Source of the DNA: Streptomyces sp. MBT53
GTDB lineage: Bacteria; Actinomycetota; Actinomycetes; Streptomycetales; Streptomycetaceae
Direction: 5' to 3'
DNA: 64,000 bases
Assembly: GCF_016654115.1 (NCBI RefSeq)
Contig: NZ_JAEQAZ010000009.1
Coordinates: 1 to 64,000, forward strand
Under the pieces are notes generated by a model, which saw only the letters and a list, made by a program, of their open reading frames with translations, was not told the DNA's origin and did no database searches. This document shows positions 1 to 15,654 of the stretch, piece by piece. Every line of letters begins with the position of its first letter. Positions within the stretch are counted from its first letter, which is position 1. The position numbers and the translations under genes were made by a program.

Positions 1-1874
1 GGGTTGCGGTCGAAGAAGCCGTCGGGTTCCAGGCGTAGGCGTGCCTTGGCCACCGGCATCACCGGCCACTCCTCGGGGCGCGGGAAGTGGTGGGAGCCGA
101 CGGTGGCCCACAGCACCAGGTCGGTGCCGTCCAACGACCGGTTCTCCTCCTGCCACTTGTGGACACCGTCGACGCCCGGCTCGGCCTGGTTCGGGTACTC
201 GCCGCCGACGAACCGCCGCTCAGCGTCGTAGGCCGTCGCCCACAACTGCCGCCCCACGAACGGCGCTCGACGGGCGCACACGCTGTCCTCGCGCACCGGC
301 AGCACCGCCGTGTTCTCCAAGTGCACGCGGTACGCGGTCGGTTCACCCATCCGGTTGCGGGACTCGGTGCTCTCCACCCGCCAGTGCAGCGCGCGCGAGG
401 GGTCGGTGCGCCGGGCCCCCTCCGACTCGCTGAGGATCGGCCGCAGCACGGTCCGGGCCGCGTTGCCGTACGGGTCGAGCACCGGGTCCGGCTCGTGCTC
501 GGCGGTGACCTCGACCAGCCGGTTGGGATCGCCGTCCACCGCCATGTCGAGACGGACGCTGAAGAAGTGCTGGTGGTTGGTGACCGCGACGTTCGGCGCG
601 ACCCGGCGCGCGTACGGCGTCGCCTCGTCCTCCTCGACACCGGTCGCGGAGAGGATGCCGGTCATCTTGATCTCCAGCATCACCGAACCGTCCTGGTACA
701 GCGACCAGTAGAAGCCGTAGTCGTAGTTGGCGACGGTCGCGAACGCCGAGATGATCAGCCGGCGCGAACGCCGCACCTCAGTACGGCCCGTGCGGCCGTC
801 GTGGTGCTTCCAGAGGATGCCGTCGTCCTCCTCGTGCACACACACGGCGTTGGGGACGAGCCGGGGCACGCCGTCGCCGCCGAGCACGGCCGCGTCGAAG
901 TACTGGATGACACCGAGGCAATCGCAGCCTAGGGCAAGGGAGTTGGTGAGCGGGCCCGCGCCGTACTCGCCCCAGTCGAAGAAGTTCTTGCGGTACTGGG
1001 TGGAGGCGGTGTCGAAGTAGGGCACGTACATCTCGTTGACGGCCGCACGCCGGATCACCTGGCGAGGACTCTTCCCGGCCGCGGCGAAGGCGAGGTCGTG
1101 CAGCACGAGCCCTTCGCGATGACTGAAGCCGACCCGGACCGACCACCCCTGCCAGTCGATCCGCTGCCCGGTGACGGTGAAACTCGGGCCGTCCGGCTGG
1201 ACGACCTCCAGCGGCTTCAACCCCGGGCGTTCGGCCACAGTCCCGGCCGAGAACACGCCGGACTCCTCCGACAGAGGCACCACGCCGTGGTCCTCGATGT
1301 GCAGGATCTCCATGGTCTCCATGTCGATGATCGGCACGACCCCCTGCACCGGGCGGGCATAGCCGTTGTCGTCCTCGTCGGTGCGATGCCAGACGCTGCC
1401 CCAGGTCAGCCGGCGGCCCGCGTACTCGGGCGGTTCGAAGCCGCCGATCGACTCCGGGTCCACCATCACCAGCGACACGTCGTGGATGCCGCGCAGCGCG
1501 AGCGCCTGACGGAAACGCGGGTCGGCGCGGCAGGCGGCAGCGGCCTGTCGGGCCTCCTCCGAGGAACAGCCCGGGCTGCGGACGTCCAACTCCCGCCAGG
1601 CGGTGGTCTGCGGCTTGTCGCCGAGTTCGAGATCGACCTCGAAAGCGTGGCGGGCGGAGGGCGAGAACACGACCGCGCGGGCCCGCCGGGTGTCCCCGGG
1701 TGCGGCACGGCGGGCGTGGTCCTCGTCGAGCGCCACACCCCAGAACCGCGAGTCGTCGGGGACCCGGGTGTCGGCCCTCAACACTCCTACGGCCGTGGCG
1801 AGTTCGGTGACGGTGAGGGGGTCCAGCGGATGCGGTGCGTCGGCCGGTACGGGTTCGGGGGCGAGAGTGCTCAC
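1..1874 (-). CDS. Copper-containing primary-amine oxidase, 3' end cut by window edge
   Basis: Oxidises a primary amine to an aldehyde with release of ammonia and hydrogen peroxide, using copper and a self-made topaquinone. 624 residues are visible; the C-terminus runs off the left edge, and by family length only a short tail should be missing. Seen: topaquinone precursor Tyr384 in NYDYGF, proton-abstracting Asp300 in FFDWGEYG followed by NSLALGCDCLG, the paired copper ligands in TNHQHFF and a third His in SHHFPRPEEWP. The GTG start overlaps the stop of the gamma-glutamyltransferase by four bases (GTGA) and has GGAAGGAA upstream, making this the third gene of the cyclase-ggt-oxidase operon. 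No signal peptide is visible, so it is probably cytoplasmic. Its aldehyde product could feed the aldehyde dehydrogenase encoded 5 kb away; that link is inference. Confidence 0.93.
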   Translation of the reverse strand, partial: MSTLAPEPVPADAPHPLDPLTVTELATAVGVLRADTRVPDDSRFWGVALDEDHARRAAPGDTRRARAVVFSPSARHAFEVDLELGDKPQTTAWRELDVRSPGCSSEEARQAAAACRADPRFRQALALRGIHDVSLVMVDPESIGGFEPPEYAGRRLTWGSVWHRTDEDDNGYARPVQGVVPIIDMETMEILHIEDHGVVPLSEESGVFSAGTVAERPGLKPLEVVQPDGPSFTVTGQRIDWQGWSVRVGFSHREGLVLHDLAFAAAGKSPRQVIRRAAVNEMYVPYFDTASTQYRKNFFDWGEYGAGPLTNSLALGCDCLGVIQYFDAAVLGGDGVPRLVPNAVCVHEEDDGILWKHHDGRTGRTEVRRSRRLIISAFATVANYDYGFYWSLYQDGSVMLEIKMTGILSATGVEEDEATPYARRVAPNVAVTNHQHFFSVRLDMAVDGDPNRLVEVTAEHEPDPVLDPYGNAARTVLRPILSESEGARRTDPSRALHWRVESTESRNRMGEPTAYRVHLENTAVLPVREDSVCARRAPFVGRQLWATAYDAERRFVGGEYPNQAEPGVDGVHKWQEENRSLDGTDLVLWATVGSHHFPRPEEWPVMPVAKARLRLEPDGFFDRN

Positions 1875-3406
1875 AGGGAACTTCCTTCCAAGGTGGTGCC
1901 ACCGTCGGCGCGGGGATCGGAGGCGCCGTCCAGCCGACCGCCCGCGGACAGTCGTACGGCCTGGGTGTGACCGGCCAGATCGGTACGGCCCGGCGCCACG
2001 ACGACCGGAACCACTGACGGGAACGCGCCCGCCGGCACGGATCCGGGTTCGGCCAGCAGGGTCGGTGTCTCGTGACCGATGTCGCGGGCACCGATCACCC
2101 AGCGCGGACGGTCCAGTACGGCGACCGGATCGGCGGCCGGGTCCATCAGATCGGGCACGGTCTGGGCGAGGATCTGCGGCTGAGCCCGGCCGCCCTGGCA
2201 GCCTGCCGCGAGCAGCAGCTCGGCGGATCGGCCCAGCACGGGACAGAGGGTGTGCGGGGGACGCAGGCCAGGGCCGATGAGGGCCGGATGGCCGGGGAGC
2301 AGGCTGAACGCCGAGCCCCGGTTGTGCAGCACGATCCCCGTCTCCGGGTCACAGATGCCGGAACCGAAGGTCTGGTACACGCTCTGGATCAGCGAGACGG
2401 CCAGCCCGGACGCGTCCACGGCGGTGATCGCGACGGTGTCCCCGGCGGGCCGGAAGGACGGCTCGGGCGGTCGCGCACCGGAGAGCGGAGCCGGACGCAG
2501 AAGTCCGTCCAGGTCGACGGGCGCGGGGCCGAGCGGATCGCCGAGCAGCAAGTCCCGTGCTGCGGAGGCGTCTTGGCAGCGGGCGGCCAGTGCGTTGGTG
2601 CGCTCCGGCTCGGGCAGCTTCGCCACGGAAGCCGCGGTCTCCAGCACGGCCATGAGGCTCGCCCCCTGACTCGGCGGCGGCGCGGTCCACCACTGCGTAC
2701 CGGCCACGTCCAGCGTCAACGGCTCGACGCTCGCCGCCTGATGAGCCGCGAAGTCGTTCGCGGTGAGTGAACTCCCGGCCCGGCGCAGGCCGTTCACCAA
2801 TGCCTCGGCGACCGCGCCCCGGTAGAAGGACGACGGGTCGTCGGCGAGCGTGCGGAGTACGGCGGCCAGTCGGGGCTGGGGGAGCGGGTCGCCTTCGACC
2901 AGGGGTGCGTCCTCGGGGCCGGTCAGCAGCGTGGTGAGCCCGGGGTCCGCGGCGATCTGCGGGACCCGCTCACGGATGGCACGGGCCAGACCCGCCGAAA
3001 CGGTGGCCCCGTCCTCGGCCAGTTCGGCGGCATCCCGCAGCGCGGCGGACAGGGCACCGGGTGTGCCGTAGGCCTCGGCGAGCGATGCCCAGCCGGCCAC
3101 CACGCCGGGCACGGTCACCGTCTGCGGGCCTTGCGCGGGCATCCGCCCGTCGGCCGCGCGCAGAGCATCGACGTCTACGGCCTGTGCGGCGGCCCCCGCT
3201 GAGAGGATCGCGCGCACCGAGCCGCCGGGCGCGTGGACGAGGGCGATCAAGTCGCCGCCCAGGGAACACTGGTGGGGATAGACGACGGTGAGAGCGGCGG
3301 CTGCCGCCAGCGCCGCGTCCACGGCGTTGCCGCCCCGCTCGGCCGCACGCCGGGCGGCTGTCAGCGCCGCCGGGTGCGGGGCGGCGAGGATCAGCTCGGT
3401 TGTCAC
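1871..3406 (-). CDS. ggt: Gamma-glutamyltransferase family protein
   Basis: 511 residues, close to the usual size for bacterial gamma-glutamyltranspeptidases, which cut or transfer gamma-glutamyl groups and mature by self-cleavage before a catalytic Thr. Seen: the N-terminal GGNAVDAALAAA block, SLGGD, PGVVAGW, and Thr324 in PAGDTVAITAVD at the expected self-cleavage point, followed by QTFGSGI and CQGGRAQ where the family has its late diglycine. The first residues run straight into the catalytic fold and no signal peptide is present, unlike classical periplasmic enzymes, so it should act inside the cell. The chosen GTG overlaps the stop of the upstream cyclase-like gene by four bases; a longer in-frame extension upstream would lie inside that gene. 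In this locus it may remove a gamma-glutamyl group from an imported or intermediate amide. A cephalosporin acylase-like role cannot be excluded. Confidence 0.87.
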   Translation of the reverse strand: MTTELILAAPHPAALTAARRAAERGGNAVDAALAAAAALTVVYPHQCSLGGDLIALVHAPGGSVRAILSAGAAAQAVDVDALRAADGRMPAQGPQTVTVPGVVAGWASLAEAYGTPGALSAALRDAAELAEDGATVSAGLARAIRERVPQIAADPGLTTLLTGPEDAPLVEGDPLPQPRLAAVLRTLADDPSSFYRGAVAEALVNGLRRAGSSLTANDFAAHQAASVEPLTLDVAGTQWWTAPPPSQGASLMAVLETAASVAKLPEPERTNALAARCQDASAARDLLLGDPLGPAPVDLDGLLRPAPLSGARPPEPSFRPAGDTVAITAVDASGLAVSLIQSVYQTFGSGICDPETGIVLHNRGSAFSLLPGHPALIGPGLRPPHTLCPVLGRSAELLLAAGCQGGRAQPQILAQTVPDLMDPAADPVAVLDRPRWVIGARDIGHETPTLLAEPGSVPAGAFPSVVPVVVAPGRTDLAGHTQAVRLSAGGRLDGASDPRADGGTTLEGSSL

Positions 3407-4056
3407 GTTTCGTCCCTCGGGCACAGCACGGTTCGGGAGGGAGCGGCCTCGGCGCCCTGCAGAGGCAGGGGGAGCGAGATCATGTCGTAGACCCCGGCCG
3501 GTGTGTGCAGGAGGTCCACCACTTCCAGGATCAACACCTCGGCAGCGCACAGGAGTTGGTGGGTCTCCCAGTGGGTGGTGTAGGCGACCGCCTCGATGCT
3601 CAGGTAGTCGATGCCCGCGGTACGTACGCCGGCCTCGATGAGCCGTTCCGCGCCGTCCGGGGCCAGTCCGACCCACTGCCGGGCCTTCCACGGGCTGCGC
3701 AGTACGCCTTCGGAGTTGCTGGTGCGCAGCAGCACGCGTTCCTCGGTGCCGAGGCCGGCCGCGTCGAGATCGGCGGCGGTGATCTGCTCCTTGACGTGGG
3801 TCAGATCGAGGACGCGGGCGGTGCCGTTGAGGGCGGACAGGTCGAGCCGGTCGACCGTCCTGCCGCCGTCGATGAAGTGGGCCGGAGCGTCGATATGGGT
3901 GCCGGTGTGGGCGCCGATGCGCCAGCGGCTGACATTGGAGGGATCGCCCGCGGTGCGGGACTCGACGATCTCCACCTCGGGGCGGCGGCCCCAGTGCAGC
4001 ATGCCGGGATGGATGGGGACGGACACGTCGATCGCCTTGTCGAAGTCCAGATTCAT
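3403..4056 (-). CDS. Cyclase-family (kynurenine-formamidase-like) metal hydrolase
   Basis: 217 residues, typical for the cyclase/KynB family, metal-dependent hydrolases of amide or ester bonds. The family signature HTGTHIDAPAHF (roughly residues 50-61) carries the metal-binding His and Asp residues, with the opening DVSVPIHPGMLHW and the late residues YLSIEAVAYTTHWETHQLL also typical. ATG start lies 11 bases after AGGAGGG on the reverse strand. First gene of an operon with ggt and the amine oxidase, read away from the divergent GntR regulator; the shared intergenic region carries a TGGATCC-type site. Its substrate is unknown; other members act on N-formylkynurenine or isatin, but the neighbours here do not form a tryptophan pathway. 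Confidence 0.88.
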   Translation of the reverse strand: MNLDFDKAIDVSVPIHPGMLHWGRRPEVEIVESRTAGDPSNVSRWRIGAHTGTHIDAPAHFIDGGRTVDRLDLSALNGTARVLDLTHVKEQITAADLDAAGLGTEERVLLRTSNSEGVLRSPWKARQWVGLAPDGAERLIEAGVRTAGIDYLSIEAVAYTTHWETHQLLCAAEVLILEVVDLLHTPAGVYDMISLPLPLQGAEAAPSRTVLCPRDET

Positions 4057-4068
4057 GCGGCCCTCCTA

Positions 4069-4105
4069 TTGGATGCGGATATCATGGAAGTGGATCCAAA
4101 AGTGT
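4069..4105. promoter_or_regulatory. Putative GntR operator A (divergent cyclase operon / GntR gene)
   Basis: The 137-base gap between the divergent cyclase-like gene and the GntR gene contains TTGGAT at 4069-4074 and ATCCAA at 4094-4099 as inverted arms, and TGGATCCAAAAGTGT at 4091-4105. The last string matches TGGATCTCAAAGTGT in front of the importer gene at 13 of 15 positions. Half-sites of this kind suit FCD-type GntR regulators. That the neighbouring GntR protein binds here is inferred from position. Confidence 0.6.
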
Positions 4106-4193
4106 GTGGCTGTGGACGCCCCGGGCCGCGTGGGAAACTGCTCCACCACCGCGCACCCCCCGACCGCCCCCGAGAAGGGTTTGACCGACTCCC

Positions 4194-4898
4194 ATGACCC
4201 CCCAGACTGACGACGAACCCCTCGTCGACGACATCGCGGCCCGAATCCGCGCGCGGATCATGAACGGCGAGCTGGCGATCGGCAAACCGCTGCGCCAGGC
4301 GGCGCTGGCCACCGAGTTCGGGGTCAGCCGCACACCGGTGCGCGAGGCGCTGCGTCAGCTCCAGAACGGCGGGCTGATCGAGATGCAGCCGAACCGCGGT
4401 GCGGTGGTCCGGGTGCCCGCGCCCTGGGAGGTGCGCCAGGCCTACGAGGTGCGCGCCGAACTGGAGGGCATGGCCGCCCGGCGCGCCGCCTCCCGCATCA
4501 CGGAACGCGGGCTCGCCGCACTGCGCGAGCACAACGCGGTCCTGTGCGAGGCGGTGGCGCGGGCCGCCGGTGAGGGGACGGGGGGCGGTAGTGCCGCGAC
4601 CACGGCGGCGAACGACTGCTTCCACACGGTCATCTGCGAAGCGGCCGACAACCCTTGGCTGACCCGGATGATCGACCGGATCAACGAGAGCTTCCCGCGC
4701 AACGTCTCCTCGCTCGCCCTCGCGGGCGACGAGCGTCATCGGCAGCTGAACATCCGTGAACACGAGGCAGTGATCGAGGCGTTGGCCGCGCATGACGCCG
4801 ACCGCGCGGACGTGCTGATGCGCGAGCACGTCATCAGTTCCGGGGAGCATCTGACGGCCTGGTACGAGCGCCGGTCCCAGACGGTGTTCCACGGCTGA
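4194..4898 (+). CDS. GntR-family transcriptional regulator, FCD subfamily
   Basis: 234 residues. An N-terminal winged helix-turn-helix (about residues 10-70) contains the family pattern PLRQAALATEFGVSRTPVREALRQL, read from the sequence in two parts around ATEFGVSRTPVREALR. It is followed by an all-helical FCD ligand domain with the usual metal/ligand residues in ANDCFHTVICEA, REHEAVIEAL and MREHVISS. Members usually repress catabolic genes until a small acid ligand binds. It sits between two catabolic operons, convergent with the long one (20-base gap) and divergent from the short one, and similar TGGATC palindromes lie at three promoters of the region. It is therefore the best candidate for the local regulator. 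ATG start with no strong Shine-Dalgarno; the ligand is unknown. Confidence 0.93.
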   Translation: MTPQTDDEPLVDDIAARIRARIMNGELAIGKPLRQAALATEFGVSRTPVREALRQLQNGGLIEMQPNRGAVVRVPAPWEVRQAYEVRAELEGMAARRAASRITERGLAALREHNAVLCEAVARAAGEGTGGGSAATTAANDCFHTVICEAADNPWLTRMIDRINESFPRNVSSLALAGDERHRQLNIREHEAVIEALAAHDADRADVLMREHVISSGEHLTAWYERRSQTVFHG

Positions 4899-4918
4899 GC
4901 GGACTGTGCGGCGCCGCC

Positions 4919-7381
4919 TCATGAGGTACCGCCGGGGAACAGGCGGGCCGGGGAGAGGAAGTCCAGGTCCGGACGGGCGATCCCGCACACCAGGTCGGCC
5001 AGTGCCTGGCCGATCGCCGGTCCGAACTTGAACCCGTGGCCCGAGCACGCGGACGCCACCAGCACCTGCGGTACGCCCGGCACCTCGCCGACCAGGAAAC
5101 GCCGGTCGGCGGTCATCGTGTAGAGGCACGTCAGGCTCTCGGTCACCGGCCCGGCGGCGGGCAGCACCTGGGCCACCGCCTCGGCGAGCAGGGCGAGTTC
5201 GGCGTCGGTCGCTCCGGGACGGGCTGCCTGCGGGTCCCAGGTCGGGCCGCTGTCCAGACCCGCCTTGAGACCGCGACCGTCGGTCGCGGGGAACCCGTAC
5301 AGCAGGCCCTGCGGCAGATCGACGGAGAAACTGCCCAGTCCGGAGGGGCCGAGCGGGCCCGCAGGGTCGGCGGCGAAGTAGGCGTTGACGATCCGAGTGA
5401 CCGTCAGGTGCGGTGCGAGGGACGGGACTTGGGCTGCGGTCCAGGGGCCGGTGCACAGCACCAGGCGGCGGGTGCGCAGGACTGCCTCAGCGGTGCGGAC
5501 CACGACCTCGTCGCCGTCCGCCTCCCAGCCTAGGACGGCGGAGTTGTCCTCGACGCGTGCTCCGGACCGTTCGGCCAGGGCCAGTTGGGCGCGGAGGGTC
5601 TCCTGAGCGTCGATGATCCCGGCCCGGGGGTCGTGCACCGCGGTGAATCCGGTGGGCAGTCGCAACCCCGGGAAGATCCGAGCCGCCTCCTTGGCGTCGA
5701 CCTCTCGGCAGCCGGGGCCGCGCAGGGGATCCGGGCGGTCGCTCGGCGCCGCGTACAACCCGCCTGTGATGTCGAGCAGTTGGGCCTTCGAGGAGCCCTC
5801 CAGCTCCGACCATGCCCGGTAGGCGGTGTCGACCAGGGCGTCCCAGTCGGGGTGGGGGTAAGCGCGACGGATCATCCGGGTCGCCCCGTGCGAGGAGCCC
5901 AAGTCATGGCCCAGGCCGTACTGTTCGAGCCCCAGGACATCGAGTCCGCGAGCGGCCAGATGGCGCAGCGTGGCACTGCCATGGACGCCGAGGCCGACCA
6001 CGATCGCGTCGTGGCGGCGGGAGTCGGGGCGTGTGGTGCGTGGGGTGGGCTTGGCGGCCGTCGGCGTAGCGGGCTCGACGCCGGCCTCGGCTTCCACCCC
6101 GGCGTCCCGCCGCCCGGTGGGCGACGCGGCACCCCGCCCGTTCAGGCACACGATCTCCCGAACCGCCTCCACCAGCGCGTCCAGATCGTCCTCGTCGTTG
6201 TAGACGTGGACGGATGCCCGGACCACCTTGGTCAGTCCCCGGTGGTCCATGTCCCAACGGCCGTGTCCCGCCGGTACGGCGATCAAATGGACCCGGCGGT
6301 AGGCCAGTTGACGTTGGATGTCCGAGGCGTCCATCCCGTCGACCACGAAGGTGACGATGGCCCCGCCCGCGGCCGGCGGGTCGGTGACCTGGACGCCCGG
6401 CAGCGCGGAGAGGCGTTCCCGCAGCGAGGCGGCGAGAGCGGCCAGGTGTCGGGCGACGATGTCCACGCCGAGCGCGGCGAGGTCGGTCAGGGCGGCACCG
6501 AGGCCGAGGCGCAGGGCGTGCGCGGCCTCCCAGAGTTCGAAGCGTTTGGCGTCCGGGACCAGTTCCCAGCTGCGCTCGGCGGTCCATACGGCACCTCGGA
6601 CATCGGGTGCCTCGGGGGCGAGCCGGTCCAGAAGGGGACGGCGGACCGCGAGCAGGCCGGTGCCGCGCGGGCCGCGCAGGAACTTCCGGCCGGTGCCGAT
6701 GAGCAGGTCGCAGCCGATGGCACCCATGTCCACCGGCAGTTGGCCGAGGGACTGCGTGGCGTCCAGGAGGAAGGGCACCCCGTGAGCGCCCGCCAACGCG
6801 CCGATGGAGGACGCGGGTTCGACCAGCCCCGAGGACGTCGGGACATGCGCGGCCGTCACCAGAGCCGCGGGCCCGGCCCGCAGCGCCGCCTCCAGGGCCT
6901 CCAAGTCCACGGCTCCATCAGGGCTGTTGGGCAGCAGCTCGACCTGGACACCGTGGTCGCGTTCGACCGACAGCAGGTGCAGCGCGCTGCTGACGTAGCT
7001 GGAGCGGGCCGCCAACACCCGGTCGCCGGGGCGCAGTCGTAGCGCCGACACGGCTCGCTGCCAGCCGGCCGTCGCGCTCTCGACGAGGGCGACCTCCTCC
7101 AGCCGGGCGCCGAGGAGTTCGGCGGTACGCGCGTAGACGGCCTCCAGGGCGGGAGCCGCGTGCTTCGCGGCCTCGTAGCCGCCGGACAGGCTCTCCGCGC
7201 GGAGGTGGTCGATGACCGCCTCGACGGTGCCGTTGGCGAGCAGGGCCGCACCGGCCGCGTTGAAGTGGTGACCGGTGAACGAGCCCGGGGTGCGGGCGCG
7301 TTCGGCCGCGACGTTCAGGGTGCGAGGGGGCGGGGGACTCGGGGGCGAAGCGGCCGTACCGGCCGTGACGGGCGCGCTCAC
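4919..7381 (-). CDS. Fusion of a PLP class-V aminotransferase-like enzyme and a sarcosine-oxidase-type FAD oxidase
   Basis: 820 residues in one uninterrupted frame. Residues about 25-410 form a fold-type I class-V PLP domain (cysteine desulfurase/EgtE/isopenicillin epimerase group): LLDATQSLGQLPVDMG supplies the PLP-binding Asp, and LLIGTGRKFLRGPRGTG holds the Schiff-base Lys233. After a Pro/Ala/Thr-rich linker (about 415-455) comes a DAO-type FAD domain: GLGVHG at 463-468, GLEQYGLGHDLGSSHG and, near the end, ESLTCLYTMT with Cys752 where monomeric sarcosine oxidases attach FAD covalently, then SACSGHGFKF. The two activities should act in sequence on an amine or amino acid, for example oxidation of an N-methyl amine together with PLP chemistry; the substrate is unknown. 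The GTG start overlaps the aldehyde dehydrogenase stop (GTGA). Last gene of the long operon. I know both domains as separate proteins, not this pairing. Confidence 0.88.
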   Translation of the reverse strand: MSAPVTAGTAASPPSPPPPRTLNVAAERARTPGSFTGHHFNAAGAALLANGTVEAVIDHLRAESLSGGYEAAKHAAPALEAVYARTAELLGARLEEVALVESATAGWQRAVSALRLRPGDRVLAARSSYVSSALHLLSVERDHGVQVELLPNSPDGAVDLEALEAALRAGPAALVTAAHVPTSSGLVEPASSIGALAGAHGVPFLLDATQSLGQLPVDMGAIGCDLLIGTGRKFLRGPRGTGLLAVRRPLLDRLAPEAPDVRGAVWTAERSWELVPDAKRFELWEAAHALRLGLGAALTDLAALGVDIVARHLAALAASLRERLSALPGVQVTDPPAAGGAIVTFVVDGMDASDIQRQLAYRRVHLIAVPAGHGRWDMDHRGLTKVVRASVHVYNDEDDLDALVEAVREIVCLNGRGAASPTGRRDAGVEAEAGVEPATPTAAKPTPRTTRPDSRRHDAIVVGLGVHGSATLRHLAARGLDVLGLEQYGLGHDLGSSHGATRMIRRAYPHPDWDALVDTAYRAWSELEGSSKAQLLDITGGLYAAPSDRPDPLRGPGCREVDAKEAARIFPGLRLPTGFTAVHDPRAGIIDAQETLRAQLALAERSGARVEDNSAVLGWEADGDEVVVRTAEAVLRTRRLVLCTGPWTAAQVPSLAPHLTVTRIVNAYFAADPAGPLGPSGLGSFSVDLPQGLLYGFPATDGRGLKAGLDSGPTWDPQAARPGATDAELALLAEAVAQVLPAAGPVTESLTCLYTMTADRRFLVGEVPGVPQVLVASACSGHGFKFGPAIGQALADLVCGIARPDLDFLSPARLFPGGTS

Positions 7382-8835
7382 AGGGCGATCGTCACGCTCT
7401 TGAGCTCGGTGAACCCGTCGACGGCGGCGTCGCCGAGGTCCCTGCCGAGGCCGGACTGCTTCGTCCCGCCGAAGGCCACGGCGGGGTCGAACTCGTTGTA
7501 CGTGTTGACCCACACGGTCCCCGCCTCCAGCGCGGCGGCGGTGCGATGGGCGCGGGCCAGACTGCCGGTCCACACCCCGGCGGCGAGCCCGTACTCGCTG
7601 TCGTTGGCCAGCGCGATCGCCTCCTCCTCGCTGTCGAAGGGCATGATCGTGGCGACCGGCCCGAAGATCTCCTCCCGGGCGATGCGCATGTCGGGGGCGA
7701 CCTCGGTGAACACCGTCGGCGGCACGAACCAGCCCGGGCCGGGCAGCGGTTCGCCGCCCGCGGCCACCAAAGCGCCCTCCGCGCGGCCCAGTTCGACGTA
7801 ACCGGTGACGCGGTCGTACTGCTCCTGCGAGACCAGCGGACCGATGTTGATGCCGCCCGAAAGCCCCGGGCCGATCCGCAGTGCCTCCACGGCCGGCACC
7901 AGCCGGTCCAGGAACTCCTTGACGATGCCGCGCTCCACCAGCAGCCTGCTGCCCGCCGTGCACATCTGCCCGGAGTGCCCGAACACCGCGCGCACGGCGT
8001 TCGGTACGGCCGCGTCGAGATCCGCGTCGGCGAAGACGATGTTGGGTGACTTGCCGCCCAGTTCGAGGGTCAGCCGCTTCAACGACGGCGCCGCCGCGGC
8101 CATGATGCGCCGCCCGACCTCCGTCGACCCGGTGAAGGACACCTTGGCCACACCGGGATGGGCGACCAGTTCCGCGCCCGTACGGCCGTCACCGGTAAGG
8201 ACGTTGACGACGCCCTCGGGCACGCCCGCCTCCAGGCAGAGCGCCGCCAGCCGCAGCGCGGTGAGCGGGGTCTGCTCGGCCGGCTTGACGACGACCGTGC
8301 AACCGGCGGCCAGGGCGGGCGCGAGCTTCCACGCGGCGATCATGAAAGGGAAGTTCCACGGCAGTACTGCGGCCACCACGCCCACCGGTTCACGGACGCT
8401 GTACACGTGCCGGTCGGGGGCGGCCGCGTGCACGGTGCCCTCCAGCCGGGTCGGCGTGCCCGCGAAATGGCGGATAGCCTGGAGTCCCAACTCCACGTCG
8501 CCGCGGGCGCGTTCGATGGCCTTGCCGTTGTCGAGGGTGTCCAGCACCGCCAGTTGCTCGGCATCGCGCTCCACCAGATCGGCGAGACGCAGCAGGACGT
8601 CACGGCGCTGCCGGGGCGGCAGTCCGCGCCAACGGCGGTCCCGGTGCGCCGCGTTGGCGGCCTTGACCGCCGCCGTCACCTCGGCCGGACCTGCCTGGGC
8701 GACCGTGGTGAGCTGCTCCCGTGTGGCCGGGTCGAGCACCGGTATCCGTTCCGTCGCGGTGCCGGTGGTCCACTCGCCGCCGATGAGCATGGGCTCGCAG
8801 TCCGGCAGCCGGGGGATCACGATGCTGGAGTCCAC
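7378..8835 (-). CDS. NAD(P)-dependent aldehyde dehydrogenase
   Basis: 485 residues, standard for the ALDH superfamily that oxidises aldehydes to acids with NAD(P). Seen: the PWNFPFMIAAWKLAPALAAG region, KPAEQTPL, FTGSTEVGRRI of the nucleotide site, the general-base Glu in LELGGKSPN, catalytic Cys292 in SGQMCTAGSR and the late EEIFGPV. The GTG start at 8835 was chosen because AAGGAG lies seven bases upstream; a longer frame exists but would overlap the previous gene. It lies 11 bases after the creatininase gene and overlaps the PLP-FAD fusion by four bases. It probably clears the aldehyde made by the amine oxidase or by the fused oxidase (inference). Closest overall pattern is the betaine/gamma-aminobutyraldehyde type, but specificity cannot be read with certainty. 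Confidence 0.94.
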   Translation of the reverse strand: MDSSIVIPRLPDCEPMLIGGEWTTGTATERIPVLDPATREQLTTVAQAGPAEVTAAVKAANAAHRDRRWRGLPPRQRRDVLLRLADLVERDAEQLAVLDTLDNGKAIERARGDVELGLQAIRHFAGTPTRLEGTVHAAAPDRHVYSVREPVGVVAAVLPWNFPFMIAAWKLAPALAAGCTVVVKPAEQTPLTALRLAALCLEAGVPEGVVNVLTGDGRTGAELVAHPGVAKVSFTGSTEVGRRIMAAAAPSLKRLTLELGGKSPNIVFADADLDAAVPNAVRAVFGHSGQMCTAGSRLLVERGIVKEFLDRLVPAVEALRIGPGLSGGINIGPLVSQEQYDRVTGYVELGRAEGALVAAGGEPLPGPGWFVPPTVFTEVAPDMRIAREEIFGPVATIMPFDSEEEAIALANDSEYGLAAGVWTGSLARAHRTAAALEAGTVWVNTYNEFDPAVAFGGTKQSGLGRDLGDAAVDGFTELKSVTIAL

Positions 8836-8846
8836 GGTGTTCTCCT

Positions 8847-9698
8847 TCACGCCTGGCGTCCGGGACGGTGAGTGGGGTCGGGCCACGGCTCACGGACCGC
8901 CGTGGACACCGCCCGGGCTGTGGTCAGGACGCAGCGGTCGAACTCCGCCTCGCCGTGCTTCGGGTTCGCGTCGGCCACGTCCCGGCCCCAGACCCCGGTC
9001 TCGCTGACCTGGTCCATGCGGTAGTCCCAGAACGAGTCGACGTCGACGTGGGAAGTGGCCCGCTCCATCCGCACCAACTCCGGTGCGAGGTGCAGCATCA
9101 CGGACGTCTCGAAGAAGTTGGCGTGCATCAACGCCCGCCCGTAGGTGACGTGTCCGTCGACTTCGGGCCCCGGGTACATGGTCACGTACCCCAACGCCCG
9201 CACCCGCGCGTCCCGGTGACGGACCCTCAGCTTCTCGGCCGACACGTCGAGCGCGCCGTTGTTCCAGATGTGCCCGTTGAGGAGCACGAACTGTCGTACT
9301 CCAGAGGCGTAGAGGGAGTCGATGACGTCTTCGACGACGGCGATCATCGTCTCCGGCCGCAGTGCCACCGTCCCCGCGAAGTCGCCGTGGGACGCCGACA
9401 CGCCGAAGCTCAGCGGCGGTACGACGGGCACGCCGGTCAGTGCCGAGACGCCGAGGGCGACCGCCTCGCAGATCCGGGTGTCCACGGCGAGTGGAAGATG
9501 CGGGCCGTGCTGTTCGGTGGCGCCCACGGGGATGATGACGGCGTCCTGGGCGGCAGCCGTGGACTCGGCCTCCGGCCAGGTCAGCTCCTCCCACAGCACC
9601 GGCGTCCCGGATCCGCCCAACTGCGCGGCGAGTTCGGGGACATCGAGCCCGGTGGGGACGGTCCGGCCGGACGGACCGGTGACGAAGACGGACGACAT
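8847..9698 (-). CDS. Creatininase-family amidase
   Basis: 283 residues. The creatininase fold is a dinuclear metal amidohydrolase group that opens cyclic amides (creatinine) or trims formyl and peptide groups (deformylase ArfB, mycofactocin MftE). The metal-binding block PVGATEQHGPHLPLAVDT is intact (Glu, His, Asp). The second metal loop reads LLNGHIWNNG where most relatives have NGHGGN, which may alter the substrate pocket. The ATG at 9698 is preferred over one 12 codons earlier because GAGGAGAGGAGA precedes it. It follows the deaminase gene by 67 bases and is followed by the aldehyde dehydrogenase after 11. With a sarcosine-oxidase domain in the same operon, a creatinine-like route is tempting, but no creatinase is present. 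Confidence 0.87.
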   Translation of the reverse strand: MSSVFVTGPSGRTVPTGLDVPELAAQLGGSGTPVLWEELTWPEAESTAAAQDAVIIPVGATEQHGPHLPLAVDTRICEAVALGVSALTGVPVVPPLSFGVSASHGDFAGTVALRPETMIAVVEDVIDSLYASGVRQFVLLNGHIWNNGALDVSAEKLRVRHRDARVRALGYVTMYPGPEVDGHVTYGRALMHANFFETSVMLHLAPELVRMERATSHVDVDSFWDYRMDQVSETGVWGRDVADANPKHGEAEFDRCVLTTARAVSTAVREPWPDPTHRPGRQA

Positions 9699-9765
9699 GG
9701 CTCTCCTCTCCTCGGGACCGATGGCGTTCGTCATCGGCGTGGACTCTTGTCGGGACCGACGGCGC

Positions 9766-10224
9766 TCACCATCGGCGTCGGCTCTTCTCGGGCAGCAGAT
9801 CCAGGGCGCGCAGCGGGACGGGCTTGTCCCCGTCGACCGTGGTGACCCACACGGTGGCGTCCGGGCAGTAGTCGCTGATCAGCTCGCGGCACACCCCGCA
9901 CGGGGCGATGATCCTGAACCAGCCCGCCGGTTTGATCTGCACCGACACCACCGAGGTGATGCTCAACTCCGCCCCGGCGGGCAGGGCGCCCCGGGCGGTA
10001 CCCATGGCCACCCCCTCGGCACAGATCGAACTCCGCCGACAGGAACCCTCCACATGGACCCCGGTGTGCACCCGGCCGTCCGCCGTGCGCAGCGCGGTCG
10101 CGACCTCGTACCGGCCCGACTGCCACACCCGGGCGAGCAAGTGCTGTGCGGTGGCGAGGAGTTCGACGTCGTCCTCGTGCATCGACGGCGGTACGGCCAC
10201 CGGCCGCACGTTCACGGCGCTCAT
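9766..10224 (-). CDS. Cytidine-deaminase-like zinc enzyme
   Basis: 152 residues, the size of bacterial tetrameric cytidine deaminases and blasticidin S deaminases, which hydrolytically remove an amino group from a pyrimidine-like ring. Seen: the first zinc ligand and catalytic Glu in SICAEGVAMG (Cys-Ala-Glu) and the second pair in APCGVCREL, giving three Cys ligands as in Bacillus-type enzymes. The phase before it reads RVHTGVHVEGSC where classical cytidine deaminases have an N-A-A/S-Y segment, so the base- or ribose-binding surface differs. The ATG overlaps the amidohydrolase stop by four bases. In this operon it more likely deaminates a catabolic intermediate with an amidine or cyclic guanidine group than cytidine for salvage, but that is inference. 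Confidence 0.85.
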   Translation of the reverse strand: MSAVNVRPVAVPPSMHEDDVELLATAQHLLARVWQSGRYEVATALRTADGRVHTGVHVEGSCRRSSICAEGVAMGTARGALPAGAELSITSVVSVQIKPAGWFRIIAPCGVCRELISDYCPDATVWVTTVDGDKPVPLRALDLLPEKSRRRW

Positions 10225-10985
10225 ACCGTCAGCCCCAGCAGCCGGGCCATGTTGCCGCCTTCGACCAGCGCCCGGTCCTTCTCGTCCTCGACCGCCTTGG
10301 CGATCTTCATGCGTTCCAGGTCGAAGTCGGAACCGGGCCACTCGCTGCCCATGAGGATCTTCTCCGGCCCGAGCCGCGCGTAGGCGCGCTTGACGTCGCT
10401 CATCAGCGTCGCCGAGGTCTCCAGGTACACGTGCGGCTGCCGCTCGGCCACGATGATGGCCTCCGGCACGTTCCACACGGCCCCCATGTGGGCGATGATC
10501 GTGGGCACTCGGGGGTGGTCCCGGGCGATCTCCTCGATGGCCAGCGGCGCGCAGAACGCGTCGTCGAGAGCGTTGATGAGGACGAGCAGTCCGCGCCGCG
10601 CGCACGCCTCGAAGACCGGGTCCAGGAGGCCGTGGTCGGCGACGTGGTAGCCGTGCAGGCTCGGGTGCAGCTTCAGCCCGACCAGACCCGCGTCGGCCAT
10701 CCGGTCGATCTCGTCGAGCGCGTCGTCGGCCTGCGGCATCACCTGTCCGAAGCCGAAGAACCGGTCCGGGTACGAGGCCACCAGCGAGGCGATGAAGTCG
10801 TTCTCGATGCGCTGCGCGAGCGAGCACACCATCGCCATGTCCACCCCCGCCGCGTCCATCCGGTCGAGAATGCGGCGCGGCTCGAAGGGCTTGTACGGCG
10901 GCGGGGCCTGGCCCTTGCGGGCGCCGGTGAGGTAGTCGGAGCGGCCGCGGACGTCCTGGGTGGTGTTGTACGCGTCGATGATCAA
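10221..10985 (-). CDS. Amidohydrolase-2 family protein lacking the N-terminal HxH
   Basis: 254 residues, a short TIM-barrel protein of the Amidohydro_2 (decarboxylase/lactonase-like) group. Seen: GLKLHPSLHGY, PTIIAHMGAVW, VYLETSATL and the late MGSEWPGSDF, all in family order. The first strand reads MIIDAYNTTQD, so the usual metal-binding His-x-His after the initial Asp is absent; this could shift metal use or make the enzyme metal-independent. The TTG start at 10985 is preceded by AAGGAC and lies 26 bases after the ATPase gene; it overlaps the deaminase gene by four bases. It probably hydrolyses or decarboxylates a ring intermediate in the pathway; no specific function is recognised. Confidence 0.83.
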   Translation of the reverse strand: MIIDAYNTTQDVRGRSDYLTGARKGQAPPPYKPFEPRRILDRMDAAGVDMAMVCSLAQRIENDFIASLVASYPDRFFGFGQVMPQADDALDEIDRMADAGLVGLKLHPSLHGYHVADHGLLDPVFEACARRGLLVLINALDDAFCAPLAIEEIARDHPRVPTIIAHMGAVWNVPEAIIVAERQPHVYLETSATLMSDVKRAYARLGPEKILMGSEWPGSDFDLERMKIAKAVEDEKDRALVEGGNMARLLGLTV

Positions 10986-11011: not shown

Positions 11012-11970
<959 letters not shown>

Positions 11971-11974
<4 letters not shown>

Positions 11975-12984
11975 GCGAGGCCTCCCTGGGTACGGGCCGT
12001 GGCACGGGCGGGGGAGGGCAGCACACAGGCGTCGAGATGCCCGTCGTCGCCGTGCCGCTGCCGCAGCACGGGCCGCTCGGCACACGCGTCGTGGACGAAG
12101 GGGCAGCGGGGCGCGAACGCACAGCCGGACGGTCGGTCCACCCCGGTCAGCGGACTGCCCGCGATGGTCGGCAGCCGTCGTACGACAGGACCGTCGATCG
12201 GCGGGACGGAGCCCAACAGCCCCATCGTGTAAGGGTGTTGGGGGTGGAACAGCACTTCCTCGCGCAGGCCCTGTTCCACGATCCGGCCCGCGTACATCAC
12301 CGCCACCCGGTCCGCGACCTCGGCCACGACGCCCAGGTCATGGGTGATCAGCAGGACGGAGGTGCCGTGGTCGCGCTGGACACGTTTGAGGACGGCCAGC
12401 ACCTGGGCCTGGATCGTGACGTCGAGGGCCGTGGTGGGCTCGTCGGCGATCAGTACGGCGGGGTCGTTGGCCAGGCCCATGGCGATCATCACGCGTTGGC
12501 GCATGCCCCCGGAGAGTTGGTGCGGGTAGGCGCGTGCCGTGCGATCGGGACCGGCGATTCCGACTTCACCGAGCAACTCCACTGCCCGGGACGCCGCCTG
12601 ACCTCGCGTCACATTCCGGTGGGCGCGGATCATCTCGGAGACCTGGGAGCCCGCGCGGTGCAGCGGGTTGAGCGCGGCCAGCGCGTCCTGGAAGACGACC
12701 GCGATGTCCTTGCCGCGCACCCCGCGCAACTCCCGCTCCGACGCGGCGACGAGGTCACGGCCCTTGAAGACCGCCTCGCCGCTGATGTGGGTGCGCGGAC
12801 CGCGGTTGAGGCCGACCAGGCTCATCGACAGGGCGGACTTCCCGGACCCCGACTCGCCGACCAGCGCGAGGACTTCGCCCTGGCGGAGGGTGAGGTCCAC
12901 GCCGTCCACAGCGGGCAGTCGGCCCGCCGGTACGTCGAACTGGACGCGCAGGTCCCGGACTTCGAGCACGGGCGCGGACGTCAT
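11971..12984 (-). CDS. Oligopeptide-type ABC importer ATPase (DppD/OppD-like)
   Basis: 337 residues, the partner ATPase. Seen: Walker [24 protein letters not shown], signature LSGGMRQR, Walker [13 protein letters not shown], switch His LLITHDLG and the C-terminal [16 protein letters not shown]. The Walker A ends in Ser-Ala rather than Ser-Thr or Ser-Gln, unusual but within tolerated variation. The ATG overlaps the stop of the alpha/beta hydrolase by four bases, so a metabolic enzyme is inserted between permease and ATPase genes of one transporter. That arrangement argues that the hydrolase acts on the transported compound. Confidence 0.94.
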
Positions 12985-13679
12985 GAGCCGTCGCCCACGG
13001 CCAGGGCCGCCGTGTGGATCAGGTCGGCGACGCGCTCGGGCCAGACGAGGGTCGTGTAGTGGCTGCCCGGTACGTGCTCGACGGTGGCCTTCATGCGGGC
13101 CGCCATGTCGTTCTGGATCTCCGGGCGCAGGGTGCGGTCGTCGTCGGCGACCAGGTACCAACTGGGCAGGGTGCGCCAGGCCGGGGTGCCCGTCGGCTGG
13201 GTGAAGATGAGGTTCTCCGCCTTGCGGCCCTCCGCCTCGACCACGACCCGCTGCTCCGGGGAGAGGTCGGGGCCGATCTCCGCCCAGAACTCCTCGCTCG
13301 TCTCGGACTTCCACTCGCCGTTCGGCCCGCGCCGCATGTACTTGGAGATCTCGGCCTCCTCGTACCGCTCGACGATCCCGTTGACCGTCTCGCCCTCGTC
13401 AGGCCCGAACGCGGCAATGTAGACAAGCCCCTTGACCCGCGGATCGCGGCCCACGTTGCTGATGACCGCGCCGCCGTAGGAGTGCCCGGCCAGCAGCACC
13501 GGGCCCGTCGTCTCCGCCAGCACGGCCGCCGTGTTGGCGACGTCGTCCTCCAGCGAGGTCATCGGGTTGGTGACGGTGAACAGCCGGTGGCCGTGCGCGG
13601 CCAGCAGGGGCTGGACGGCCGACCAGGTCGTCGGCCGTCCGCCGGCGCCGTGGACGAGCACGATGTCCATGCGGGTCAT
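12981..13679 (-). CDS. Alpha/beta hydrolase (esterase/amidase-like)
   Basis: 232 residues, a small alpha/beta hydrolase of the plant-esterase-like group (hydroxynitrile lyase/salicylate esterase type). Seen: HGAGGRPTTW forming the oxyanion region, nucleophile Ser in AGHSYGGAV, acid candidate in VADDDRTLRPE, and the catalytic His in PGSHYTTLVWPE. ATG at 13679 overlaps the permease stop by four bases; a second ATG three codons later is an alternative. No signal peptide, so it acts in the cytoplasm. Inserted between permease and ATPase genes of the importer, it may hydrolyse an ester or amide in the imported molecule; specificity cannot be read. Confidence 0.88.
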   Translation of the reverse strand: MTRMDIVLVHGAGGRPTTWSAVQPLLAAHGHRLFTVTNPMTSLEDDVANTAAVLAETTGPVLLAGHSYGGAVISNVGRDPRVKGLVYIAAFGPDEGETVNGIVERYEEAEISKYMRRGPNGEWKSETSEEFWAEIGPDLSPEQRVVVEAEGRKAENLIFTQPTGTPAWRTLPSWYLVADDDRTLRPEIQNDMAARMKATVEHVPGSHYTTLVWPERVADLIHTAALAVGDGS

Positions 13680-14746
13680 CCTTTCCGTAGCCGCGGATCG
13701 AGGACCGTGTAGAGCACGTCCACCGCGTGGTTGACCAGGGTGAAGAGGAGGGCGATGGCGAGGGCGGCGCCCTGCACGACGGGGTAGTCGCGTTGCAGGA
13801 CGCCCTGCACGAGCAGGCGGCCGACACCGGCGTACGAGAAGACCGTCTCGGTGATCACCGAACCGCCCAGCAGCGAACCGAATTGGAGCCCGAGGACGGT
13901 CACGATGGGGAGCCAGGAGTTGCGCAGCACGTGGTGGCGGATCACCACGCTCTCGCTGAGGCCCTTCATCCGGGCGGTCCGCACGAAGTCGTCGTCGAGG
14001 ACTTCCAGTACCGAGGCGCGCACGATGCGGGTGATGAATCCGGCCATCGACAGCGCCAACGTGACGGCGGGCAGGATCAGATGCTGGATCCAGGGCCACA
14101 CCAGCTCAGGGCGGTTCTGGAGGATCGCGTCCAGGAGAACGAAGTTGGTGGTCGGGTTGTAGTCGAGCGAGCTGGGCAGCCGGCCGAGGACCGGGAGCCA
14201 GCGCAGCCACACGCCGAACACGACGATGCCGAGCACACCGAGCGCGAACCACGGGAGCGAGAAGCTGACCGTGGCGACGGCCCGGGTCGAGTGGTCGATC
14301 CAACTCCCCTTGCGCAGCGCGGCGATGACCCCGGTGACGACACCGAGCAGCACCGCGATCGTCATCGCCGCCAGCGTCAGCTCGATCGTGGCGGGGAGCG
14401 CGTCGCCGAGCAGACCCAGGACGCTGTTGGAGCCGTAGAACGAGGTGCCGAGCCGTAGGTGCACCAAGTCGTTGAGGAAGGTGCCGTATTGGGCGACGAG
14501 GGGTCGGTCGAGGCCGAGGGCCTTGTTGACGCGCGCCTCGTTGGCGGCCAGTTGGTCGGCGGAGAGGTTGTTGCCGCCGGCCGCGAGCGAGGTCGCCGGT
14601 GAGCCGGGCAGCAGGCGCATCGCGAGGAACACCAGGCTGGCCAACGCGAACAGGACGACGGGGATGACCGCGAGGCGTCGTAGGACCAACAGGGTGGGTC
14701 CGGCTGCCCACTTGGGCCTGCGGAGGGGGAGCAGTGCGGTGGTCAC
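13676..14746 (-). CDS. Oligopeptide-type ABC importer permease (DppB/OppB-like)
   Basis: 356 residues, inner-membrane permease with an N-terminal segment (LAVIPVVLFALASLVFLAMRLLPG) typical of the B subunit, the family pattern GLDRPLVAQYGTFLNDLVHLRLGTS read around LGLDRPL, several further membrane spans, and the ATPase-contact EAA loop RTARMKGLSESVVIRHHVLRN. The GTG start at 14746 overlaps the stop of the C-type permease gene by four bases (GTGA). It forms the membrane channel with the neighbouring permease. Confidence 0.93.
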   Translation of the reverse strand: MTTALLPLRRPKWAAGPTLLVLRRLAVIPVVLFALASLVFLAMRLLPGSPATSLAAGGNNLSADQLAANEARVNKALGLDRPLVAQYGTFLNDLVHLRLGTSFYGSNSVLGLLGDALPATIELTLAAMTIAVLLGVVTGVIAALRKGSWIDHSTRAVATVSFSLPWFALGVLGIVVFGVWLRWLPVLGRLPSSLDYNPTTNFVLLDAILQNRPELVWPWIQHLILPAVTLALSMAGFITRIVRASVLEVLDDDFVRTARMKGLSESVVIRHHVLRNSWLPIVTVLGLQFGSLLGGSVITETVFSYAGVGRLLVQGVLQRDYPVVQGAALAIALLFTLVNHAVDVLYTVLDPRLRKG

Positions 14747-15654
14747 GCGGGCCCCTTCACGTCGAGCGCGTCGCGCAGGTCGTCGCCCACGAAGTTGCAC
14801 GCGACGACGAACAGCAGCGTGAACGTCGCGGGCAGGACGACCAGTCGGGGTGCCGTGTAGAGGAACTCCTGGCCCGCCTGGACCATGTAGCCCCAGTCGG
14901 GCTGAGGGGGTTGGATGCCGAGGCCGAGGTAGGACAGGCCGGCGGCGAAGCCCGCCGCGATCGACAGCGTCATCACGACCTGGGCCAGCATCGGTCCGGC
15001 GATGTTCGGGAGGAGCTCGCGGGCCAGGATGCGCGAGGTGCGGGTGCCGCCCAACTTGGCGGCGACGACGTAGTCATGGGCCGCCTCGCGCGCGGTGAGG
15101 GCGCGGGCGAGGCGGGCCAGACCGGGCGCCAGGGACACCCCGATGCCGAAGACCAGGCTGACCGTGCCCGGTCCCGCGGCCGCCACGAGGAGGATGACGA
15201 GCAGGATGGACGGAAACGCGAGGGCGAGGTCGACGATCCGCATCAGGACCTGCTCGACGACACCGCCGGCGTATCCGGCGACGAGTCCGATCCCGGTTCC
15301 AACTACAGCTGCCAGCGCGGTCGCCGCGAACGCCACCAGCAGCAACGGCCTTGCGCCGTGCACCAGTCGGGCCAGTTCGTCGCGGCCCAGGTCGTCCGTG
15401 CCGAACAGATGGCCGGACGAGCCCATGGGCAGCAGCGCCGAGGACGTCTGACGCAGCGGGTCCGCCTGGATCAGCAGCGGTCCTACGACGGCCACCAGAA
15501 CCAGGACGATCAGCACCAGCCAGGACAGCACGGCCGGCCAGGACCGTGCCAGCCGGCGCCGACGCCATACGGCGAGGACGCTCCGCCCGGTGACGGGCGA
15601 CGAAGGGGGCCGTACGGTCGCCACGGGTGGTGGAGCCGTCGTGGTGTCAGACAC
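14743..15654 (-). CDS. Oligopeptide-type ABC importer permease (DppC/OppC-like)
   Basis: 303 residues. Cytosolic N-tail, first membrane span around LSWLVLIVLVLVAVVGPLL, the C-subunit hallmark GTDDLGRDELARLVHGAR, further spans, and the EAA loop DYVVAAKLGGTRTSRILARELLPN, then LSYLGLGIQPPQPDWG, all diagnostic of the C permease. GTG start (GTGTCTGAC) overlaps the last eight bases of the binding-protein gene. Second gene of the operon in transcription order. Confidence 0.93.
   Translation of the reverse strand: MSDTTTAPPPVATVRPPSSPVTGRSVLAVWRRRRLARSWPAVLSWLVLIVLVLVAVVGPLLIQADPLRQTSSALLPMGSSGHLFGTDDLGRDELARLVHGARPLLLVAFAATALAAVVGTGIGLVAGYAGGVVEQVLMRIVDLALAFPSILLVILLVAAAGPGTVSLVFGIGVSLAPGLARLARALTAREAAHDYVVAAKLGGTRTSRILARELLPNIAGPMLAQVVMTLSIAAGFAAGLSYLGLGIQPPQPDWGYMVQAGQEFLYTAPRLVVLPATFTLLFVVACNFVGDDLRDALDVKGPA

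Follow-up and report, generated by a model that had tools for sequence, protein, structure and literature searches.

Does a polypeptide that joins a pyridoxal phosphate (PLP) enzyme to a flavoenzyme act on a single compound, and if so in which order? The question is raised by a gene lying in the first 64,000 nucleotides of contig NZ_JAEQAZ010000009.1 (C543) of the 11.3-Mb genome of Streptomyces sp. MBT53, a stretch hereafter called the window, which begins where the contig begins. The gene reads as encoding an 820-residue protein in which a class-V PLP domain is followed by a sarcosine-oxidase-type domain dependent on flavin adenine dinucleotide (FAD). A preliminary description of this DNA had taken the fused pair to catalyze consecutive reactions on one compound and hence to give direct information about the pathway; in our analysis its reading of the sequence proved correct and its interpretation correct in part.

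The fusion is genuine

The gene forms a single open frame of 820 codons plus a stop on the minus strand (Table 1), and Pfam recognizes Aminotran_5 in residues 54–403 (E = 7.8e-47) and DAO in residues 458–797 (E = 1.2e-46) of its product. Since 29 of 41 related loci encode both domains in a single frame, the fusion is genuine and does not stem from a frame error. Such an error, which the preliminary description had named as a refuting outcome, was looked for and not found. It could be defended by the existence of two separate genes in 9 of the 41 relatives, but the 29 fused relatives already refute it and the codon composition of the two domains continues through the linker (G+C content at third codon positions of 0.89 in the linker vs. 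0.88 and 0.87 in the domains), so that its probability is practically nil. The linker itself, previously described as proline-rich and free of frame interruption, is indeed uninterrupted but is rather Ala/Thr/Pro-rich; that it lacks a stop codon proves little by itself, this being expected by chance with a probability of about 0.70 over 45 codons. The GTG start of the fusion overlaps the stop codon of the upstream aldehyde dehydrogenase gene (shared GTGA), a junction likewise present in relatives L028 and L030. The AlphaFold2 model of the fusion has a mean pLDDT of 89.0, with residues 1–16 and 420–453 below 50; its low pTM (0.57) makes the modelled placement of the two domains relative to each other unreliable.

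The relatives were sought in named genomes with two peptide patterns, both taken from the PLP half; the scan thus covers PLP-half matches, FAD-only proteins and more distant PLP relatives being outside its reach. From the 44 loci found we set aside L091 and L092 (PLP only, 23–24% identity) and L093, a fragment at a contig end in the genome that also holds L065. The remaining 41 loci, all actinobacterial, comprise 29 with a fused gene, 9 with two adjacent genes, 1 truncated at a contig end and 2 that are broken. Each of the 38 uncut, unbroken loci, found via PLP-half patterns only, holds both halves, either fused or adjacent. Fused forms are carried by Streptomyces (which include the nearest carriers), Amycolatopsis, Nocardia, Acrocarpospora, Actinoplanes and close genera, Nonomuraea and one further actinobacterium; split forms are carried by Microbacterium, Herbiconiux, Kineosporia, Pseudonocardia and two Actinoplanes-type strains. 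In the fused proteins the gap between aligned domain ends ranges from 12 to 160 residues, the largest being that of L067 (10001–12808). Seven of the nine split loci have called genes that overlap by 1–28 nt, the called start of the second gene being placed further down in the two others (L083 and L087); two more split operons, L116 and L117, each display a 4-nt overlap. In the broken locus L088 (Pseudonocardia sp. CNS-139), the PLP part lies in two frames and the FAD part was not found, while in L090 the PLP part lies in two frames and the FAD part is open; both reflect either decay or draft errors.

Phylogenetic trees were built for each half, leaving out, as for the residue counts given below, L069, L088 and L090. 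The two trees agree in outline, and each requires two changes between the fused and the split state (5%–95% range over 200 bootstrap trees: 2). When the tree is rooted with 13 PLP-only rows, L065 being also left out, the deciding branch has weak support (88/83), and both one fusion with two separations and two fusions with one separation fit. For L082 and L086, whose split pair falls inside a group of fused relatives, a later separation is the best interpretation.

The fusion protein looks rare. It is present at full length in 4 of 61 genomes, the window's own included, all from one genus (4 of 37 genomes there); three of the loci (L056, L062 and L072) are apparently the same records as genomes G011, G014 and G032, so that these counts and the 44-locus scan are not independent. 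In a sample spread evenly over the phylum (396 genomes, two candidates scored per genome), 15 genomes have a match at E ≤ 1e-80, the full-length protein being found only in the window's own genome.

Catalytic residues of the two halves

The preliminary description had assigned the Schiff-base lysine to K233 and the covalent FAD attachment to C752. Both positions are confirmed: K233 aligns with the PLP lysine of EgtE and C752 with the cysteine of the CMYT motif in monomeric sarcosine oxidase (MSOX), and both are invariant in the 39 rows of our alignment.

The closest solved sequence to the PLP half is that of EgtE, the hercynylcysteine sulfoxide lyase (8irk, 108 bits), and EgtE comes first, SufS next, among both NCBIfam PLP models and PDB entries. 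The EgtE model, TIGR04343, is matched at 1e-40 by each of the 27 PLP-bearing rows that were scanned; alignment A2 consists of the window protein and 32 of 45 listed proteins. Foldseek also returns EgtE among the top matches, with a TM score of 0.88–0.90 (normalised by target) and 29–30% identity. Six EgtE residues, Tyr48, Asp180, Gln183, Arg202, Lys203 and Arg348, all of which were mutated in PMC10805701, correspond in the HMMER alignment to Y69, D207, Q210, R232, K233 and R388. These six residues are invariant in every row covering the site. The catalytic cysteine of SufS (Cys361), on the other hand, aligns with R375 or falls in the adjoining gap, and no cysteine occurs at residues 370–394, the corresponding region, in any of the 39 rows. 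Since the Asp, Gln, Lys and Arg of the EgtE set are common in class V, only the tyrosine of the GGY motif speaks for EgtE in particular. We take the structures 8irk, 8iry and 8is0 to be those of the M. smegmatis enzyme of the EgtE mutation study, given the Y106F title and the matching numbering. Altogether, within class V the PLP half can be placed in an EgtE-like lyase type: it shares with EgtE the fold and most catalytic residues, although, unlike EgtE, it is fused to a flavoenzyme and encoded away from egt genes. Hence it may work like EgtE, presumably by β-elimination on a free α-amino acid, yet it is not filed as EgtE because it scores well short of the cut-off of that model.

The FAD half belongs to the monomeric sarcosine oxidase superfamily, whose fold, GxGxxG FAD site, flavin cysteine and equivalents of Arg49, Arg52, Lys265 and Lys348 are all present. 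Its closest relatives are the sarcosine oxidase of T. roseum (7exs; 40% identity, Foldseek TM score 0.88, normalised by target), MSOX and MTOX (2uzz). C752 presumably corresponds to the flavin-bound Cys315 of MSOX, a numbering that fits the printed alignment; a covalent flavin on C752 is therefore putative. R502, R505, K706, Y754 and K785 are, like C752, invariant in 39 of 39 rows. If, as we assume, the MSOX-type Arg and Lys residues bind the carboxylate and a further Lys activates O2, the FAD half is expected to take a substrate with an α-carboxylate; more generally, binding of an α-carboxylate is what the residues kept in both halves lead one to expect. With respect to family models, the window protein scores 179.3 bits against soxA_mon (TIGR01377, cut-off 479.65) and 278.9 bits against N-methyl-L-tryptophan oxidase (NF008425, cut-off 257). 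The latter model is matched at 1e-40 by all 26 FAD-bearing rows scanned; passing it provides a family name, not proof that N-methyltryptophan is the substrate.

Proposed role and its alternatives

In 37 full-length loci, a constant core of genes is joined to changing hydrolases and importers. This core comprises the PLP half (37 loci), the FAD half, a copper amine oxidase, an aldehyde dehydrogenase and a GntR regulator (36 loci each), and a Rieske oxygenase and a γ-glutamyl-amine ligase (35 loci each), presence being scored with per-gene identity thresholds that we set. Fused and split pairs lie within this same core operon. Together with the nine loci where the halves are adjacent genes, seven of them overlapping, this makes it well supported that both halves serve one pathway, as the preliminary description had implied; its more specific claim, consecutive reactions on one compound, is plausible.

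PLP catalysis requires a primary amine, which is what a sarcosine-oxidase-type enzyme makes from a secondary amine bearing an α-carboxylate. Were the two halves to work on one nitrogen atom, the FAD domain would thus come first and the PLP domain second. We propose, giving it about an even chance, that the protein is a bifunctional enzyme of an actinobacterial amine-catabolic operon, performing FAD oxidation and then PLP-dependent β-elimination of an N-substituted α-amino acid. The C-terminal domain, probably with covalent FAD, would act on an N-substituted (or cyclic) α-amino acid by oxidizing its secondary amine, and the imine formed would hydrolyze to a primary α-amino acid and an aldehyde, with production of H2O2. 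The N-terminal domain would form an external aldimine with the primary amino acid and eliminate its β-substituent in the manner of EgtE; the products would be pyruvate, ammonia and the group split off. Amines and aldehydes set free in these reactions could then be handled by the copper amine oxidase, the γ-glutamyl-amine ligase and Rieske oxygenase, and the aldehyde dehydrogenase. The fusion, its conservation, the operon and the intact residues for cofactor and carboxylate binding are established; the order of the two steps, the β-elimination, a benefit from proximity and the substrate are what we infer. More tentatively, the fusion may stand at the center of an actinobacterial pathway not described so far, in which the FAD half removes the N-substituent of an unusual β-substituted amino acid and the PLP half splits it, on one polypeptide, the product feeding a γ-glutamylation, Rieske and copper-amine-oxidase route, while interchangeable hydrolases and importers adapt the pathway to natural N-alkyl amino-acid conjugates; we rate this broader scheme at somewhat under an even chance.

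The ligase sequence from locus L029, to which the copy in the window's own genome (contig C51) is 91% identical, has NpaA1 as its nearest PDB match (402.5 bits, the next match scoring 181.6 bits); it is closest to a proven glutamyl organic amide synthetase (GoaS), not to glutamine synthetase. γ-Glutamylation pathways are described in PMC11335346 for aromatic amines (NpaA1 and AtdA1), isopropylamine and putrescine. Like these pathways, the operon pairs a γ-glutamyl-amine ligase with oxidizing enzymes, a GGT-family hydrolase being present in part of the loci; unlike them, it adds a Rieske oxygenase, a copper amine oxidase and the PLP–FAD pair. A search for ligase relatives gave matches in 6 of 197 genomes: three with the operon (the window's own, G537 and G600), two with other neighbors and one at a contig end. 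The ligase motif was listed for 21 loci, matched by a pattern written from the motif itself.

Several observations weigh against the proposed role. The score of the protein against TIGR04343, 175.9 bits, is far below the 400-bit cut-off. VIA-align lists 50 matches (residues 19–423, PLP half only), all of them of the cysteine-desulfurase type, with Z scores of 46–49. Among further EgtE residues, the PLP-stacking Tyr106 is aligned by HMMER one residue off the invariant Y129, and the Arg337 site is R in 23 of the 39 rows and Q in 16. In the FAD half, the site of MSOX His269, a residue whose importance PDB entry 1l9c names in its title, is Asp in 36 rows and Glu in 3. This substitution and the fusion to a PLP domain set the FAD half apart from the MSOX family, and N-methyl amino acids, which the preliminary description had suggested for assays, are one option for the substrate, not the sole one. 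The bottleneck aromatics of NpaA1, Phe75, Phe86 and Trp235, are Lys, Phe and Phe in the printed alignment with the L029 ligase; as the aryl pocket is kept in part only, an arylamine substrate is unsure, and AtdA1, also aryl-active, likewise differs from the NpaA1 pocket (PMC11335346). The range of domain gaps in the fused proteins argues against a fixed channel, and since nine loci are split, the fusion is not essential. Finally, PLP relatives with 36–48% identity have no FAD neighbor in the stretches examined, so the PLP group can act alone, and FAD-half relatives with 31–40% identity match without a PLP half. The PLP–FAD pairing therefore belongs to this operon, not to either family.

Two alternatives keep the protein in the same operon. 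In one, the PLP half has a non-lyase class-V activity, as an aminotransferase, a racemase or an enzyme of CcbF-like decarboxylation-coupled deamination. Class-V folds host many reactions, the lincosamide enzymes CcbF and LmbF, for instance, combining a common fold with different reactions (PMC11794154), and aminotransferase models match the PLP half too, more weakly; the invariance of the EgtE-type residues, of which just the GGY tyrosine is EgtE-specific, argues for a lyase and makes this alternative rather unlikely. In the other, which overlaps the first, the halves act on different compounds of one pathway and the fusion fixes stoichiometry or co-expression only. The variable domain gap, the nine split loci and the minimum of two fused–split transitions required by the trees all fit this idea, which deserves serious consideration while falling short of being probable: both halves are kept in 38 of 38 intact loci, a set found with PLP-half patterns, and their trees agree in outline.

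The resemblance to EgtE and to SufS suggests two further alternatives. The PLP half could replace EgtE in ergothioneine synthesis, or the operon could use ergothioneine-type thiol conjugates. Contig C356 of the same genome (L126 2034–6341) carries egtD, over its cut-off, with egtA-, egtB- and egtC-like genes (by reading) beside it; no PLP gene is found in the 14-kb stretch that holds these genes, and in the genome the fusion scores best against the EgtE model, no protein being over the cut-off. However, the fusion occurs in just 4 of 37 same-genus genomes and the operon looks catabolic, making this link improbable. That the protein is a cysteine desulfurase fused to an oxidase is the least tenable of these alternatives: the structural neighbors listed by VIA-align are of the SufS type, but the missing cysteine described above and a SufS model score of 141.7 bits for a cut-off of 475.1 bits reduce it to a very slight chance. 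Returning to the bifunctional amine-catabolic enzyme, the coexistence of fused and split forms of one pair amounts to a natural test of what fusion adds, and the core genes, constant while hydrolases and importers change, mark out a pathway open to tracing by growth screens, whose substrate would reveal a compound that soil actinobacteria feed on.

The preliminary description had left room for an earlier characterization of the fusion; our searches of the open-licence literature of PubMed Central (PMC), which leaves most subscription journals outside its scope, gave no description of the architecture or of the operon. All the parts come from known families, and the operon is a conserved pathway, not a new kind of system. 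Assigning its function could also enlighten a class-V PLP group annotated merely as "aminotransferase class V-fold", the sole annotation of the two matching plasmid records, both of which are PLP-only. Six stretches around PLP-only relatives were viewed, of 14 PLP-only matches in the phylum sample, and none has a FAD-half match nearby; no common pathway was seen among the neighbors of single-domain PLP relatives in the stretches viewed. In one such relative, L103, the PLP gene itself was missed by the gene caller.

Neighboring genes

The genes flanking the fusion in the window are collected in Table 1. The copper amine oxidase is named from its L029 relative (3288–5234), a Cu_amine_oxid protein whose nearest PDB entry is a phenylethylamine oxidase.

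Table 1. Features of the window at and around the fusion gene; fractions refer to relatives (/41) or full-length loci (/37)
Feature	Position	Strand	Basis and remarks
Copper (primary) amine oxidase	3..1784	−	Gene call; cut by contig start; named via 90% identical relative
Gamma-glutamyltranspeptidase-family hydrolase (GGT)	1871..3406	−	Pfam; 22/37
Cyclase/arylformamidase-like hydrolase	3403..4056	−	Pfam Cyclase; below TIGR03035 cut-off; 17/37
GntR/FCD regulator	4194..4898	+ (opposite strand)	Pfam; 36/37
Fused PLP–FAD protein, 820 residues	4919..7381	−	GTG start; open frame; Pfam Aminotran_5 and DAO; 29/41 fused
Sarcosine-oxidase-type FAD domain	4937..6016	−	Residues about 456–815; putative covalent-flavin C752 at 5126–5128
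Linker	6017..6151	−	Residues about 411–455; variable, Ala/Thr/Pro-rich, predicted disordered
Class-V PLP domain, EgtE-like	6146..7321	−	Residues about 21–412; Schiff-base K233 at 6683–6685
Aldehyde dehydrogenase	7378..8850	−	Pfam Aldedh; best NCBIfam StyD, below cut-off; GTGA overlap with fusion; 36/37
Creatininase-family amidohydrolase	8847..9734	−	Pfam; below creatininase cut-off; 16/37
Cytidine-deaminase-like protein	9766..10224	−	Pfam; NCBIfam matches below cut-offs; 15/37
Amidohydro_2-family hydrolase	10221..10985	−	Pfam; 26/37
Peptide-type ABC importer, two ATPases	11012–11974 and 11971–12984	−	Gene calls, kept in relatives; named by sequence reading
Alpha/beta hydrolase	12981..13679	−	Pfam Abhydrolase_6; α/β hydrolase in 25/37
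Importer permeases	13676–14746 and 14743–15531	−	First named by reading; second BPD_transp_1
SBP_bac_5 binding protein of importer	15647–17236	−	Peptide importer in 27/37

In relatives, the Rieske oxygenase, the γ-glutamyl-amine ligase and in part a ferredoxin reductase (17 of the 37 full-length loci) lie in the same cluster as the fusion. In the genome of strain MBT53, these three genes are found at the end of contig C51 (L115 5805–9560), the Rieske gene lying 73 bases from the contig end, and an assembly gap between C51 and C543, where the amine oxidase is truncated, probably interrupts the operon; a simple check in one orientation found no exact overlap between the ends of the two contigs. 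The nearest PDB chain to the Rieske oxygenase is named putative phthalate 4,5-dioxygenase.

Known routes suggested by single neighbors were also considered. A histamine route, on account of the copper amine oxidase and aldehyde dehydrogenase, is unproven: the hin genes of a review on bacterial histamine (PMC8231116) were compared by name only and gave no clear match. Creatinine catabolism, which would combine a creatininase with a sarcosine oxidase, was set aside since the creatininase-like gene, below its cut-off, is present in fewer than half of the full-length loci and hence is not core. For catabolism of ephedrine or N-methylphenethylamine, the search made of the open-licence PMC literature gave nothing relevant.

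The accessory genes vary among loci. In L066, L081, L116 and L117, other genes take the place of the hydrolases of the window; by sequence reading they encode phosphotriesterase-like hydrolases, a GMC-type oxidoreductase, an isochorismatase-like protein, a small cupin or a polyamine-type importer. In L028, the region upstream of the operon (4011–5395) holds an amidohydrolase-like gene (by reading) and a gene for a cysteine-dioxygenase-family protein (Pfam CDO_I), neither of which is seen in the window.

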